DNA from: Actinomycetes bacterium
GTDB taxonomy: Bacteria; Actinomycetota; Acidimicrobiia; Acidimicrobiales; Acidimicrobiaceae
Assembly: GCA_021826315.1 (NCBI GenBank)
Contig: JAKAZZ010000001.1
Location: 1 to 64,000, forward strand
Length of the DNA: 64,000 nucleotides
Direction: 5' to 3'
Shown here: positions 18,894-54,847 of the stretch, one piece after another
How positions within the stretch are numbered: the stretch's first letter is position 1
Layout of the letters: each line of letters opens with the position of its first letter
Made by a program: the position numbers and the translations under genes
Notes under the pieces: generated by a model
Told to the model about the DNA's origin: nothing
The model's input: only the letters and a program-made list of their open reading frames with translations
Databases searched by the model: none

Positions 18894-21068
18894 TCATCTA
18901 CCTGCATGTAGCCATCCTCTCAGATTTCCACCAAGCGTTCTTCCATGTTCTTTTGACAGAAGTGAATTTGAATTGCCGCACTTAGGACTCACGATACAGC
19001 TCGGACATCCATCTTCACACGGACACTCCTCTAGATTCTGTATCGAAGTTGCTAGCAACTCGCGCCATCTCGCAAAGGATGCACGAGCCACTCCACTTCC
19101 TCCGTCACTCCCGTCATAGATCGCAATCGCTCCGCCGTTTGTGATGATATCGACTCCGTTGTTATATGGGCCATTTATCACAAATGAGACACCTCCGACG
19201 TCCCAGCGATCACATAGTGAGACGGTCGAAAGTACTCCGATTGTGGCGTGTTCGAAGGCGTGAAGGGCAGCGCCATATTCGCTGATCGGAATCTCTGAAA
19301 ATAAGTAGAAAGGGATCGCGAATAGAAGAGCTTCGCTCTGTAGGGTCTTTGGTTCGAGTTCGTAGTCTATAAATTCAACTACTTCTCCCCTCCCTTGCAA
19401 AAGGTCATATCCAGTAAAGAATTCTGTGACTTCAATCTCGGATAAAGAAACGAGTCCTTCTAAAGATTCGTCTTTCTCTATGGTTTTGAGAAGGCTATAT
19501 TGAGACTCGATACGGGGTTTGGTATACCTCTTAGAACTCTCTGAGGCGCAGTAGACGAGGCGTTGGTCAAAGTCAATGTCGGTACCGCGGTGTCGTCGTC
19601 CTCGGTGGCGGTGTATGGCCCCAAGGTAGAAGTTGAAAAAGAGCCTTGAGCTATCAAAGATTTCGAGAAGCTCTCCGTCGTCGGTGATGAGGGTGTAGGT
19701 AACGCTGTCTCCACCCCTTAGGCCGCCAACCTTGCTCGGTCGAAGCGCGCCAACAAAGAGGTGCCCTGATTTAGTTGCGACTAATTTTCCTTGTTGCTGA
19801 TTTTCTTCGAGTAGATCTTGAATGAGTCGCTGGTGTTGATGGTCGTGCGATAATTGCTCTGGTTTGATTGAAGTCTCATCTGCAGCGCAGAGTAGTTGGT
19901 ACTCCATGACTTTGGGGTTTTGTGGATTTATCGCAGCCGACTCGTCGCGGCGATCGTTGATTGAATTTATATTTCTAACGACCCATTGATCAAGGTTGTC
20001 GCTGTCAGGTAGCAGTACCAGGGCTGAATCGTTCGTTGAAAGCGTTGAGATGTTGCGACGAATCTGAGCGATCGTCTTTGGTATGCCGAGGAAGATCACA
20101 AGGTCAGATTGCGGCAGCTCTAGCGAAAGTTGAGACGTTGCAACGGCGACCTTGAACTCCCCCGAGGCAATCTCTTCTCTGATATCGTCACGCACTTCAT
20201 CGATGTAGCCACCGCGGTAGAGGAGTGGTTTTATTTCGGTACCACCATTGTGGCTTGATATGGAAGTAATAGTCTCGGCGATTACTTCGGCCTGACTTCG
20301 CGAAGAGGTAAGTATGGTCGTTCGAAGGCCACTCATTTCGAGTTGAACGCCAATGGATGCGGCAAGGAATGAGGGAGATGCAACGGCATTCGCAGCCTCG
20401 ACTGAAGCCGTGAGACATGGTATTTCTATGCCATCTATCATCCAAAGTTCGCGACATTCGGCCGGATCCGAATCGATGATTGCGCCAAATAGAGACCTTG
20501 CGTTTCCAAGATATATTGCGGTGGCGTTGAAGGATAGGTGGTTGCCCTCCTTGGCGATCGATAATCGTTTGAGGATGTAGTAGAGATGGGATCCAAGGAC
20601 ACCACGAAAATTTGAGAGATCGAAGAGACTTACAGTCGAGACCGCCTCTAAAAGACGAGTGAATCTAAAGCTGTCTGGCAAGATCTTGCGGTGAAGGATC
20701 TCCGGCGTGCATACCAACAGCTTTCGTCGCGATCCAAGGGTTGCCATGTCTTTGATAGATATTTTGTCGGTTAGGTCTAGTGCAAAGTCGGGTCCAAATC
20801 GCCCCTTAGCACTCTCTACTACAATCTGGGCTTCGTACTTGCTTGAGGTGAGTACGAGAGTGGTAGAACCGAGATCTGCGCGTCTCTTGGCATAGCCCAA
20901 GGTCGAGTCAATCGCAGCTGATGACCTATCCACGTTGATGACAAAATTGTGGGCATTATCGGACACTTCGCCATCGAGGTGTGGGGTGATCCTAAATTCG
21001 GTCTGTTGGAGGAAGGGCCACTTACTGGTGATCGCTGTTACGAGTTCGTTATTTGAGTCTCGTTTCAT
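18894..21068 (-). CDS. MrfA/YprA-like helicase homologue lacking ATPase motifs
   Basis: A 724-residue protein related over its length to MrfA/YprA-type superfamily 2 helicases with a C-terminal DUF1998/MZB zinc domain. The fold is recognisable (LLVCTPEILHRKILP, then FRGVLGSHLYYILKRL), and the four-cysteine zinc site CPCEDGCPSC...CG is intact near the C-terminus. The motor motifs are not: no GKS/T Walker A exists in the N-terminal part, the DEAH position reads FDLSNF, SAT reads NATAI, and the QxGRxGR arginine-finger region reads RRNISTLSTND. It probably cannot hydrolyse ATP and may act as a DNA-binding or structural partner. The frame is open throughout, so it is not an obvious pseudogene. Confidence 0.75.
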   Translation of the reverse strand: MKRDSNNELVTAITSKWPFLQQTEFRITPHLDGEVSDNAHNFVINVDRSSAAIDSTLGYAKRRADLGSTTLVLTSSKYEAQIVVESAKGRFGPDFALDLTDKISIKDMATLGSRRKLLVCTPEILHRKILPDSFRFTRLLEAVSTVSLFDLSNFRGVLGSHLYYILKRLSIAKEGNHLSFNATAIYLGNARSLFGAIIDSDPAECRELWMIDGIEIPCLTASVEAANAVASPSFLAASIGVQLEMSGLRTTILTSSRSQAEVIAETITSISSHNGGTEIKPLLYRGGYIDEVRDDIREEIASGEFKVAVATSQLSLELPQSDLVIFLGIPKTIAQIRRNISTLSTNDSALVLLPDSDNLDQWVVRNINSINDRRDESAAINPQNPKVMEYQLLCAADETSIKPEQLSHDHQHQRLIQDLLEENQQQGKLVATKSGHLFVGALRPSKVGGLRGGDSVTYTLITDDGELLEIFDSSRLFFNFYLGAIHRHRGRRHRGTDIDFDQRLVYCASESSKRYTKPRIESQYSLLKTIEKDESLEGLVSLSEIEVTEFFTGYDLLQGRGEVVEFIDYELEPKTLQSEALLFAIPFYLFSEIPISEYGAALHAFEHATIGVLSTVSLCDRWDVGGVSFVINGPYNNGVDIITNGGAIAIYDGSDGGSGVARASFARWRELLATSIQNLEECPCEDGCPSCIVSPKCGNSNSLLSKEHGRTLGGNLRGWLHAGR

Positions 21069-21094: not shown

Positions 21095-21760
21095 TTAGCG
21101 ATTTCCCACAAGAATTGACTTAACTTCACTCTCGGATTCGACGTTTACTAGGACGACTACTTCGTCACCGCTACGAAGGATGGTGTCGCCGCGTGGAACA
21201 ATGACGTTCTCTTCACGAATGATCGCGACGATCGAAGCCTCTCGGGGAAATGGAAGTTGCGATAGCTCCATGTCATTTGCTGGGGAGTTGTCGGCTAGCG
21301 TTACCTCCACTAGGCGAGCTCCACTTTTTTCAAAGGAGAGAAGTCGCACAAGTGACCCCACCGAGACCGCCTCTTCAACTAGAGATGAAAGCAGGTGAGG
21401 TGTTGATACAGATACGTCAACTCCCCAAGTCTTATTGAAGAGCCAGTGGTTGCGAGGGTTATTTACTCGAGCAACGACCCTAGGTACCATGAACTCTTGC
21501 TTTGCTAAGAGGGAGATTACTAAGTTGTCCTCATCGTCACCGGTGGCCGCAACTACTACGTCCGCATCCGATAGTCCAGCCTTTTCAAGTGATGAGACTT
21601 CGCATGCATCGGCGATCAAGTAAGTGCATTTGATGTCAGGATTTAGTTTTTTGGCCTCATCGCGGTTCTTTTCGATTACGAGAACTTCGTGACCTGCATT
21701 ACCAAGATCTTCTGCAATGAAGGAACCGACACTTCCAGCGCCTGCGATTATTACCTTCAT
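21095..21760 (-). CDS. TrkA-family K+ transport regulator (CeoC-like)
   Basis: A 221-residue cytoplasmic regulatory subunit with an N-terminal RCK/TrkA-N Rossmann domain (GAGSVG, residues 7-12, acidic VIEKNRDE after strand 2) and a C-terminal TrkA-C domain. These bind NAD(H) or nucleotides and gate a Trk/Ktr potassium channel. It overlaps the neighbouring TrkA gene by 4 bases. The pair plus the divergent permease copies the ceoB-ceoC (Rv2691-Rv2692) locus of mycobacteria. No membrane Trk subunit is encoded in the window. Confidence 0.88.
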   Translation of the reverse strand: MKVIIAGAGSVGSFIAEDLGNAGHEVLVIEKNRDEAKKLNPDIKCTYLIADACEVSSLEKAGLSDADVVVAATGDDEDNLVISLLAKQEFMVPRVVARVNNPRNHWLFNKTWGVDVSVSTPHLLSSLVEEAVSVGSLVRLLSFEKSGARLVEVTLADNSPANDMELSQLPFPREASIVAIIREENVIVPRGDTILRSGDEVVVLVNVESESEVKSILVGNR

Positions 21761-22416
21761 TTGTGGTGGTCTCCCATTCTAGAAATTGTGGAATCGAGGG
21801 AGATAATATTGTCGCGCTCGATCAGAAAGTGGAGGATATCGCCGTCTTGAATAACAATCTCGGGTGTATAACGCCTGGTAGTTGTTCCGCGCGTTAGAAG
21901 AATAGGCTCGAAGTTCGCCTTGAGAGCGCTGTACCTATGGCCTATCAAAGCTTCTGGAACACCTCGCTCTAGGAGTACAAATTGTCCATTTGAGTCGATC
22001 CAATCAGGCTTTGCCTCGGTGTCGAATAGCCTACGCATAGCCTGTTCTGTCGTCCAGGTTACGGTCGCGACCGTTGAAATCCCAAGTCTGCGGTAGATCT
22101 CCGCGCGCTTAGGATCGTAGATTCGGGCGACTACCTTCGGGACCTCGAAGGTCTCTTTAGCAATTCTTGCAGTCAAGATATTGGAGTTGTCGCCACTCGT
22201 AACGGCTGCTAGAGCATCTGCATGTTCCACACCTGCGGCCTTTAGGCAGTCCCGGTCGAAGCCGAGACCTTCGAGTGACGAACCAGAAAAATTAGGTGGT
22301 AATCTACGGAAGGCGGCAACGTTTTTGTCGATTATGAAGGACGTATGACCCTCCTGATCGAGTCGCGCCGCTAGCTCGGAGCCTACTCGCCCACACCCAA
22401 CTACTATCACGTGCAA
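21757..22416 (-). CDS. TrkA-family K+ transport regulator (CeoB-like)
   Basis: A 219-residue RCK/TrkA protein with the nucleotide loop GCGRVG (7-12) and a C-terminal TrkA-C domain. It is the first gene of the two-gene unit and overlaps the next by 4 bases, suggesting the two assemble into one regulatory ring on a potassium channel. It is transcribed divergently from the permease/OB-fold gene, as ceoB is from Rv2690c in M. tuberculosis. Confidence 0.88.
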   Translation of the reverse strand: MHVIVVGCGRVGSELAARLDQEGHTSFIIDKNVAAFRRLPPNFSGSSLEGLGFDRDCLKAAGVEHADALAAVTSGDNSNILTARIAKETFEVPKVVARIYDPKRAEIYRRLGISTVATVTWTTEQAMRRLFDTEAKPDWIDSNGQFVLLERGVPEALIGHRYSALKANFEPILLTRGTTTRRYTPEIVIQDGDILHFLIERDNIISLDSTISRMGDHHK

Positions 22417-22546
22417 GTTAAATCACCTAGTAATCTAAAGTTAGTCGGGCATCTATTTGAACCGACGTGCCTAGATTATATACGTTATAGGGCGACCAAT
22501 AAAACCCAAAAGTTTCAGTTGACTCTCGGGCGAAGGGATTCTTAGA

Positions 22547-24955
22547 GTGTCAGATAGTGAAGAGTTAGGCTCCCCCGGTTCCAGCTCATATGATTCGAGT
22601 CCAAATGTTCCGTTCCGTGGAGTTCGTGGAGGCAATCAAAGGCCTGCGACCCTTGCACCCCTTGGATCGTACGATATTCCAGAGACAAGGCTTTATCGTC
22701 TCAAAAATAAGTTTCTCGGTAAGCCTCTCGTCAATGAAAGCTTAAAGGGTGAGCGCTTAGGCAACTTCACCGCAATGGCGGTGCTCTCCTCTGATGTTAT
22801 CTCGTCGTCGGCCTATGCCACCGAGGAGATATTGACGATCTTGGTGCCAGTAATCGGTGTAGCCGCCTTCTCGCTGGTTCTCTCTGTTTCGTCCTTGATC
22901 CTCGTAATCCTCGTAACGGTTGCGGCCTCGTACTTCCAAGTAATAAAGGCGTATCCGAAGGCCGGTGGCGCTTACGTAGTGGCTCGCGATAACTTTGGTC
23001 CAAAGATAGCCCAGATTGCGGCGGTCGCGATCATGATCGACTATACAATCACAGTTGCAGTTTCAGTTGCTGCAGGTGTTGATGCAGTTGTCTCGGCAAT
23101 ACCATCACTAGGACCCTACACTCTAGAGTTAGCGGTCTTTTTTGTATTGTTACTCGCCTATGGCAACCTGCGTGGTATCAAAGAGGCGGGCAGACTGTTT
23201 GCCCTCCCGGCCTATCTCTTTATTGTGAATATGTTGATAATGCTCTCGGTCGGTGTATTTAAGGCTCTGACCGGAGGTTTGAAAGCTCTTCCCCTTCACG
23301 TGGCAGGTGGTTATCGACCAGGAACTCCTGGTTCAGGGTTATTCATGGGGGCTTCGCTCTTTATCTTCCTCCAAGCATTTGCTAACGGTGGATCCGCCGT
23401 AACCGGTATTGAAGCGGTATCAAATGGCGTTTCGTTGTTCAAGGCTCCTCAGTGGAAGAACGCCCAGCGCGTCTTGGTCTACATGGCGGTGATTTTGGGA
23501 ACCTTATTCTTCGGCCTCTCCTTCTTGGCCTCTAAGATTCACCCCGTTCCCCGAATCTCCGGTACCCCTACGGTGATTTCGATCATCGCCCAAACGGTCT
23601 ACGGCTCGACTGCGCTTGGCAAGGTGTTCTTCTATATTTTGCAGATCAGCACATACCTCATCTTGATCTTCGCAGCGAATACCTCTTTTAACGGCTTTCC
23701 ATTCCTCGTCTCCTTCGCGGCTGAGGACTCATTCCTGCCAAGGCAATTCCGTCGCCGAGGTCATCGCCTCGCCTTCTCTAACGGGATCATCCTCCTAACG
23801 GTCGTATCCGAGATAATTTTGATTGCAACCAAGGCGAGTGTCAACTCCCTGATTGGTCTTTATGCCATCGGCGTCTTCACCGGGTTTACTATCGCTGGCC
23901 TAGGAATGCTCAAGCACCACCTTAGGCTCAAAGAACCTGGATATAAGAAGGGTTTTGTCGTCAACTTGATTGCGGCAGTCCTCTCTTTCATAGTCGTAAT
24001 CGTCTTTTTGGTTACTAAGTTCACCCAGGGAGCTTGGGTAGTCGTCGTAATAGGCCCAGCGATGGTATTTGGCTTCATACGTCTTAATCGTCAGTACGTT
24101 GAAGAGGGAAAGCGCCTTGAGAGTGACGTTACGGCAGCATGTGAGGCCCCGGTTCTCCGGAAGCACAAAGTCATCCTCTTCGTCGAAGAGCTTGACTTAG
24201 CCGCAGCTCGCGCCCTGCAATATGCTCGCACACTCACCCCCGATGAGATCCGTGCCGTCCACGTTGAGCTCGATAGGAAGGTCGCCCGTTCGCTCGAGAC
24301 CGCCTGGTCTGAGTTGGGAGTTCGCCGTATCGACCTTGAGGTTGTCGAGTGCGCCGATCGTCGTATCCGTCGCGCCGCTATTGACGTTGTAGCTGACGCC
24401 GTATCTGACAATGAGTCCGAGGTTACCGTTCTTCTACCACGCAGGAGTTACTCCGGTTTCTTCCAACGCGTCCTTCACGACCATACGGCAGACTCACTCG
24501 CGCGCGTACTAAGCCAGTTACCCCACGTTAATGCCACAATCATTCCCTTCCACGTCAACTTGAGCCAGCACGACCGTCTTCGTCGAATCTTGGGGCGTAA
24601 GACCGCTGAAGATATCGAAGTCAAGAATGTCATCGCCAATATGGAGAAGTCGTCGAGCCCTGAAGTAAAGGGCGCTACCTCTATTCGAGACGTCGAATAC
24701 CGGAAGGTTTCTAAAGTTTCTGGTCGAATAAAGTCGGTTCGAGTACAGCCGCTTGACTCAATCCCCTCACTTGCGGTTCGTCTTGAAGACGCCAGTGGCG
24801 GAATAATGTTGGTATTTCCTGGAAAGAGGACGATCCCGGGCCTTGAACCCGGGCGGCTAGTGGTCGCCACCGGTCGCATAGGAAACATCGATGGCCACAT
24901 AGCGATTATGAATCCTGACTATGAGGTTCTGTCGGCTCACGACGACGACGAGTAG
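22547..24955 (+). CDS. APC-superfamily permease fused to a C-terminal OB-fold domain
   Basis: An 802-residue protein. Residues ~75-520 form an APC-type permease with about 12 membrane helices (AVLSSDVISSSAYATEEIL, KAYPKAGGAYVVARDNFGP), matching the Rv2690c-type permease next to ceoB. A soluble region (~530-690) follows, like the cytosolic tail of such permeases. The last ~90 residues (from 712, IRDVEYRKVSKVSGRIKSV, ending GHIAIMNPDYEVL) resemble the small OB-fold protein usually encoded separately in this locus (Rv2694c-like). The reading frame is continuous, so this is a true fusion. Transported substrate unknown; potassium or amino acid uptake is possible. Confidence 0.82.
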   Translation: MSDSEELGSPGSSSYDSSPNVPFRGVRGGNQRPATLAPLGSYDIPETRLYRLKNKFLGKPLVNESLKGERLGNFTAMAVLSSDVISSSAYATEEILTILVPVIGVAAFSLVLSVSSLILVILVTVAASYFQVIKAYPKAGGAYVVARDNFGPKIAQIAAVAIMIDYTITVAVSVAAGVDAVVSAIPSLGPYTLELAVFFVLLLAYGNLRGIKEAGRLFALPAYLFIVNMLIMLSVGVFKALTGGLKALPLHVAGGYRPGTPGSGLFMGASLFIFLQAFANGGSAVTGIEAVSNGVSLFKAPQWKNAQRVLVYMAVILGTLFFGLSFLASKIHPVPRISGTPTVISIIAQTVYGSTALGKVFFYILQISTYLILIFAANTSFNGFPFLVSFAAEDSFLPRQFRRRGHRLAFSNGIILLTVVSEIILIATKASVNSLIGLYAIGVFTGFTIAGLGMLKHHLRLKEPGYKKGFVVNLIAAVLSFIVVIVFLVTKFTQGAWVVVVIGPAMVFGFIRLNRQYVEEGKRLESDVTAACEAPVLRKHKVILFVEELDLAAARALQYARTLTPDEIRAVHVELDRKVARSLETAWSELGVRRIDLEVVECADRRIRRAAIDVVADAVSDNESEVTVLLPRRSYSGFFQRVLHDHTADSLARVLSQLPHVNATIIPFHVNLSQHDRLRRILGRKTAEDIEVKNVIANMEKSSSPEVKGATSIRDVEYRKVSKVSGRIKSVRVQPLDSIPSLAVRLEDASGGIMLVFPGKRTIPGLEPGRLVVATGRIGNIDGHIAIMNPDYEVLSAHDDDE

Positions 24956-54749: not shown

Positions 54750-54847
54750 ATATTTCATCAAGAGCGGTCGAGGGACGGGCCCTACGACGCCGCGGCAACC
54801 GCTTCTGCGAAGAAGGTGCCAACGCCCGAGCGATGAGGAGGATACAG
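54750..54847 (+). ncRNA. SAM riboswitch (S-box class) in the thrC leader
   Basis: Signatures run in order: TCATCAAGAG at 54755, GGTCGAGGGACGGGCCC, CGCGGCAACC and AAGGTGCCAACGCC, then GATGAGGAGG. The TCATC at 54755 pairs with GATGA at 54832-54836 to form stem P1. The 3' strand of P1 abuts GAGGAGG, the thrC ribosome site, so ligand-bound P1 should block translation. No terminator hairpin follows. In actinobacteria this class binds S-adenosylmethionine. Confidence 0.88.

Follow-up and report, generated by a model that had tools for sequence, protein, structure and literature searches.

A KimA-type permease fused to an Rv2694c-type OB-fold domain beside ceoB and ceoC in an actinobacterial genome

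The fused gene and its parts

The window is the whole stretch of DNA that was analysed, 64 kb in length. The features with which this work is concerned are listed below in the order of their positions, together with the evidence on which each assignment is based.

21095..21760, minus strand: ceoC-like RCK protein with TrkA_N and TrkA_C domains (Pfam; gene order)
21757..22416, minus strand: ceoB-like RCK protein with TrkA_N and a weak TrkA_C domain, divergent from the fusion (Pfam)
22417..22546: divergent intergenic region of 130 bp between ceoB and the fusion, with no Rfam riboswitch
22547..24955, plus strand: KimA-type permease-OB fusion, 802 aa (open frame; joined form present in at least 37/60 relatives)
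22697..24136, plus strand: transmembrane domain, residues 51-530 (KimA alignment, residue mapping, model helices)
within the transmembrane domain: K+/H+ residues D83, Y90, T169, T286, E289 and Y439 (KimA alignment)
24137..24562, plus strand: KimA-type cytosolic domain, residues 531-672 (KimA alignment, residue mapping, model)
24563..24682, plus strand: variable linker, residues 673-712 (low pLDDT; poorly kept in relatives)
24683..24940, plus strand: OB-fold domain of the Rv2694c type, residues 713-798 (model, PF01336 in relatives, hhalign)

The first-pass annotation of this DNA had described a permease and an OB-fold protein joined in one 802-residue chain, and this is what the sequence contains: a single open frame of 802 codons runs on the plus strand from GTG at 22547 to TAG at 24955, with no internal stop. 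A structure model of the whole chain has the same layout as the domains derived from the sequence (permease, linker, OB), and in this model residues 673-704 of the linker have pLDDT values below 50. The two RCK proteins beside the fusion match TrkA_N in Pfam with E-values of 1e-28 and 1e-25. A ydaO (c-di-AMP) riboswitch is absent from the whole 64-kb window at the Rfam gathering threshold.

Residues 51-669 match Bacillus subtilis KimA (PDB 6s3k) from end to end with an E-value of 4.9e-108, which is the sole match in the PDB, and the Pfam family AA_permease_2 is matched over the permease part with an E-value of 3.6e-28. The KimA residues that have been reported to be involved in K+ binding or proton coupling are D36, Y43, T121, T230, E233 and Y377 (PMC6994465, PMC10284832); their equivalents are identical in the window protein and in 25/25 fused proteins, and among 65 other KimA-type permeases from actinobacteria nearly all retain the same six residues. 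Judged by these residues, the fused permease is a KimA-type (KUP-family) K+/H+ symporter with an intact K+/H+ site, for which transport is predicted. The earlier designation “permease” can be made more specific, in that the permease is of KimA type. A third KimA-like permease type, with approximately 35% identity and with F in place of KimA Y377 and H in place of R337, occurs at two other loci (L066 and L070), where neither an OB domain nor CeoBC was detected nearby.

KimA is controlled by c-di-AMP, which binds in the cytosolic domain of KimA itself (PMC10284832). In the c-di-AMP pocket of the window protein, R399 (KimA R337, which is in the TM8-9 loop of the transmembrane part) and H644 (KimA H579) are retained, while N580 is replaced by D, Q581 by H, S582 by T and P479 by F; the equivalent of KimA V506 is present in the window protein and absent from most relatives. 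At positions 579-582, about half of the non-fused permeases read H, N, Q and S, as KimA does. A diadenylate cyclase gene is found in the window genome and in 52/60 genomes searched, and control of the fused permease by c-di-AMP is possible. The overall comparison with B. subtilis KimA (6s3k, 8b70, 8b71) is that the fusion shares the transmembrane and cytosolic domains, all of the K+/H+ residues and part of the c-di-AMP site (the equivalents of R337, H579, Y118 and N237), but lacks several residues of the c-di-AMP pocket (the equivalents of P479, F565 and V457), has an additional N-terminal tail, linker and OB domain, and adjoins two RCK genes. At six loci from several other actinobacterial families (L109, L141, L149, L152, L154 and L159), the cytosolic domain of KimA occurs a second time behind the transmembrane part, mostly in frame with it, and the C-terminal end of KimA thus seems to be a site where domains get added.

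The C-terminal 103 residues of the window protein match the Pfam OB family PF01336 below threshold (21.9 bits compared to a cut-off of 27), and PF01336 is matched by 53/54 members of the family, with a best E-value of 2.3e-9. The AlphaFold model of the domain is a confident five-stranded barrel with a mean pLDDT of 88, and the structures nearest to it include the OB folds of archaeal RPA, the RecG wedge and AspRS (Z 10-12). The claim that the tail is an OB domain of the Rv2694c type was evaluated by hhalign profile comparison, which had been set as the test beforehand, and it is upheld by the alignment of 21 fused OB domains with 9 mycobacterial ceo-locus OB domains (99.4%, E 5.6e-21, 31% identity over 91 columns). 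By this profile comparison, the tail of the fusion is an Rv2694c-type OB domain which shares common descent with the separate OB protein of ceo loci.

Among PDB sequence matches of the OB domain, RecG is the best with a self-sufficient stretch (E 0.004); the top matches are to ubiquitins, are inflated by repeats and lack any one stretch that is significant, and they were rejected as spurious. The OB folds of the RecG wedge, RPA and AspRS (PF01336, PF17191) have the fold and a weak sequence similarity in common with the ceo OB domain, but the latter is without a helicase, replication or synthetase domain and is linked to K+ transport genes. A computational label that gives Rv2694c the name “artP, arginine transport ATP-binding protein” (PMC6528289) was also set aside, because a lone OB domain is at odds with such an assignment.

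The OB family has a conserved glycine loop, preceded by an aromatic residue (F/W58) in 54/54 members and a basic residue (R/K61) in 52/54, and G66 is invariant. The phosphopeptide RIPGIDTGR that has been reported for M. tuberculosis Rv2694c (PMC4322841) fits the loop RIPGI(E/D)SGR of the mycobacterial OB sequences that were fetched, a set drawn from mycobacteria other than M. tuberculosis. A threonine in the conserved OB loop is phosphorylated in M. tuberculosis (PMC4322841), and the window OB domain has a proline where M. tuberculosis has this threonine.

Linkage, layouts and history of the fusion

The linkage of the OB domain to K+ genes was evaluated with 60 loci across the phylum, for the choice of which only the OB domain was used. 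At 53 of these loci CeoB/CeoC and a KimA-type permease are both present, at 3 the permease only, at 3 CeoB/CeoC only and at 1 neither, and each of the two partners is thus found near the OB domain in 56/60 loci. With a mycobacterial OB query, 80 loci were found, nearly all from genomes named Mycobacterium or Mycolicibacterium, and at 76 of these the order is OB (plus), ceoC (minus), ceoB (minus), permease (plus), the other four having the OB gene without the full set. This agrees with the earlier statement that the permease and the OB protein of mycobacteria are separate genes flanking ceoB/ceoC. The mycobacterial ceo locus (Rv2690c, ceoB, ceoC, Rv2694c) shares with the window locus the same four modules, including a homologous OB domain, but its OB gene is separate and lies beyond ceoC, and its permease belongs to another KimA-type clade. 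One locus of the mycobacterial type (L226) is titled as a Bifidobacterium breve MAG; its OB protein is 85% identical to that of Mycolicibacterium, and it is probably from a mislabelled or contaminated bin.

Four layouts were observed: OB beyond ceoC, which is the commonest; OB upstream of the permease; OB downstream of the permease as a separate gene; and OB fused to the permease. At ten loci the OB gene immediately precedes the permease in the same orientation, its stop lying at most about 45 bp from the point where the permease match begins, and at three (L053, L054 and L114) a separate OB gene lies just downstream of the permease. Since the OB domain is found directly beside the permease in several layouts, more than one lineage has placed it there. 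The first-pass annotation had taken the fusion as a Rosetta-stone hint that the OB module acts with the permease or with the K+ regulators, and this inference is strengthened by the phylum-wide linkage and by the ten loci with OB directly upstream of the permease. As to the choice between the two partners, which had been left even, the fully scanned loci that are broken up lean to the permease, because OB occurs with the permease but without ceoBC in 6 of them and with ceoBC but without the permease in 2. The counter-point is that the commonest layout sets OB beside ceoC, which would equally suit a contact between OB and CeoC. In one genome of the same class, the OB gene is situated between ceoB and ceoC (L113:6209-8110).

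Within the order, a search for the fusion in relatives found the permease and OB domain joined in frame in at least 37/60 genomes (window genome included), a count which was obtained from the match table of the 60 relatives together with the locus L052. Among the relatives with the fused frame, one has a complete genome (2,158,157 bp). A genome that at first appeared to have separate genes (G036) was left out of the separate count, because its pieces are at contig ends (L051 and L069) and are probably a split assembly. The gene ceoB is linked to the fusion in 16/24 fused loci (window excluded), and most of the other 8 are at contig edges or in genomes with a second ceo locus. One relative has a tandem pair of permease-OB fusions beside ceoBC (L042:5913-10706).

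In comparisons with the two closest relatives, synonymous sites in the folded domains are near saturation (pS 0.66-0.89) and the OB domain is identical at 82-83 of its 86 residues. At 70-79% identity, relatives retain 5-14 of the 40 linker residues and 53-57 of the 86 OB residues. A comparison of dN/dS between domains was set aside due to the saturation of synonymous sites, and protein conservation alone is quoted. Because the OB domain is kept in these relatives while the linker varies, the OB module is, on protein conservation, under purifying selection. A fusion specific to one strain is ruled out by the conserved OB domain, the free linker and the number of genomes in which the joined frame occurs.

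In the permease tree, all of the fused proteins fall in one clade (97/93), along with a few members whose OB gene is separate, and the nearest outgroup of this clade (L111) has a separate OB gene beyond ceoC. A branch with 100/100 support divides the fused clade from the clade that contains the permeases of mycobacterial-type loci, and the fused permease is therefore, as far as the tree can tell, a sister type and not the orthologue of Rv2690c. The earlier description of the fusion as the Rv2690c permease joined to the OB protein is too simple, given this separation and the fact that four genomes of the order (G038, G039, G042 and G044) carry both KimA types. In these four genomes the fused-type permease and its own OB domain lie apart from ceoBC, while the permease of the other type adjoins ceoBC and is accompanied by a separate OB gene. 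The OB gene tree has too few columns to resolve the date of the fusion; there may have been a single fusion followed by later splits, or more than one fusion.

Co-occurrence with KimA and TrkH

In 246 actinobacterial genomes, KimA is present in 68/70 genomes with the OB domain and in 23/176 without it (Fisher p ~1e-37), and TrkH is present in 13/70 with OB and in 136/176 without (Fisher p ~1e-17); these tests ignore shared ancestry and the p-values are descriptive. TrkH is also present in 24 of the 91 genomes with KimA. Within the order, TrkH occurs in 6/9 genomes without KimA, and only 3 genomes with KimA have it.

Neither TrkH/KtrB (PF02386) nor Kup is matched in the window genome, the assembly of which is approximately 90% complete, so that a TrkH could be missed; KdpA is present. 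Since no TrkH was found in an assembly of this completeness, it is unlikely that CeoB/CeoC serve TrkH in the window genome. CeoB and CeoC are TrkA-like RCK proteins and in this respect resemble the TrkA of the enterobacterial system (TrkH channel plus TrkA), but in the window locus TrkA is split into two genes, no TrkH was detected in the genome, and the membrane protein linked to the two genes is a symporter of the KimA type.

The role of the OB domain and the partner of CeoB/CeoC

The interpretation favoured here, which is regarded as probable, is that a KimA-type importer has the OB domain as a subunit for regulation or docking, and that CeoB/CeoC probably act on this importer and not on a TrkH channel. 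Its components do not all carry the same weight. It is very likely that the OB domain functions as a module of the importer; it is likely that its role is in the regulation of transport and not in an action on nucleic acids; and there is a reasonable expectation, held with somewhat less assurance, that CeoB/CeoC act on the same importer as the OB domain. In this mechanism, an OB subunit which most actinobacteria, mycobacteria and streptomycetes among them, have as a separate protein has been attached behind the cytosolic domain through a flexible linker. The importer would be a dimer with swapped cytosolic domains, as is KimA, and each dimer would consequently carry two OB domains at its cytoplasmic face. 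Transport would be adjusted by the OB domains in one of two ways: they would bind a ligand, or they would dock CeoB/CeoC, which are nucleotide-binding RCK proteins, onto the permease. CeoB/CeoC would then gate the symporter in place of a TrkH channel. The structure of B. subtilis KimA was solved and its transport assayed without OB or RCK partners, and so the module is not needed for transport as such.

An unlikely alternative is that the OB domain is itself a sensor which binds a nucleotide or nucleotide second messenger (for example c-di-AMP, ppGpp or ATP/ADP) and switches the importer independently of CeoB/CeoC. The retention of OB with the permease at loci that have no ceoBC is consistent with such a sensor, as are the invariant aromatic residue and the basic residue ahead of the glycine loop, and the control of KimA by c-di-AMP (PMC10284832) in combination with the diadenylate cyclase gene in the genome. 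On the other hand, the cytosolic domain of KimA already binds c-di-AMP and its site is partly conserved in the fusion, which would make a second sensor unneeded, and OB folds commonly bind proteins too.

It is less probable still that DNA or RNA is what the OB domain binds, so that some activity on nucleic acids would be anchored at the membrane, or expression coupled with transport, with the K+ locus being secondary. The resemblance to RPA, the RecG wedge and AspRS and the weak sequence similarity to RecG are what this proposal has in its favour; similarity of fold does not show function, however, and 59/60 of the OB loci are linked to K+ genes, while the fusion sets the domain on a membrane transporter throughout an order.

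The fusion could in principle be incidental, i.e. a neutral read-through of two neighbouring genes that brings no functional coupling. The adjacent separate genes of the close outgroups L053, L054 and L114 imply that the loss of a stop would suffice to produce it, and fused and separate members are intermixed at the base of the clade in the permease tree. Nevertheless, the joined form has been retained over a family and many genera with a conserved OB domain and a free linker, and other layouts also pair OB with the permease, which together make an incidental fusion highly improbable. An artefact, be it a frameshift, a misassembly or a C-terminal segment that has no relation to the OB protein Rv2694c, can be dismissed with near certainty despite the sub-threshold Pfam match of the window protein's own OB domain, because the same fusion recurs across the related genomes and the profile match to the mycobacterial OB domain is highly significant.

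The reading of the OB domain as a subunit of a KimA-type importer bears on the ceoB/ceoC system of M. tuberculosis. CeoB and CeoC have been studied as a constitutive “Trk” K+ uptake system of this organism which matters for host colonization, and deletion of ceoBC perturbs K+ homeostasis (PMC6375644). Transposon mutants of ceoB and Rv2690c are alike in their enhanced survival in rifampicin (PMC12216072). The M. tuberculosis “Trk” papers that were searched by term contain no mention of TrkH, nor, where this name was searched as well, of Rv2690c; no named membrane subunit was found, and one of the papers presents the system as a pair of TrkA proteins. A study of Streptomyces venezuelae lists KimA-like proteins, was unable to find TrkH or KtrB, and saw no binding of c-di-AMP by the RCK_C domain of Vnz_27460 (PMC10117811); the gene number of Vnz_27460 adjoins that of the KimA-like Vnz_27465. 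A link between CeoBC and KimA or between Rv2690c and KimA was not found in the open literature, the coverage of which omits most subscription journals, and neither was a description of the control of KUP/KimA proteins by RCK and OB components.

A KimA-type importer may be the partner of CeoB/CeoC in the M. tuberculosis “Trk” system too. On the strength of the linkage, the avoidance of TrkH and the natural fusion, the membrane part that is missing would be a symporter of the KimA type, and the small OB protein would be a subunit that has been overlooked. The window protein is a KimA transporter to which a conserved OB module has been added, and this makes the identity of the membrane partner of CeoB/CeoC directly testable. 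If the reading is correct, then a KimA under the control of OB and RCK proteins is a transporter-regulator combination which the fusion displays in one chain. A more far-reaching proposal is that the actinobacterial ceoB/ceoC “Trk” system, that of M. tuberculosis included, would be no Trk system but would comprise a KimA-family K+/H+ symporter (of either the Rv2690c or the fused type), a two-protein RCK assembly that controls it and an OB subunit which acts as a nucleotide sensor or phosphoswitch; this is put forward tentatively, as a possibility with slightly less than an even chance.

Two other features of the window were observed. Beside ceoC, a TIGR03817-type helicase is encoded at 18894-21068 (minus strand) which is without Walker A (GxxxxGK[ST]) and without a DEAH-type box, and in which a cysteine cluster is present. 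Its relatives in the order (L055, L058, L061 and L113) have GTASGKS and DELH, but both motifs have also been lost from the helicase of the same genus at L031, so that, from its motifs, the protein looks like an ATPase-dead helicase of the genus. Finally, a SAM riboswitch (RF00162, 70 bits) at 54752-54839 (plus strand) lies directly upstream of the ORF at 54833.
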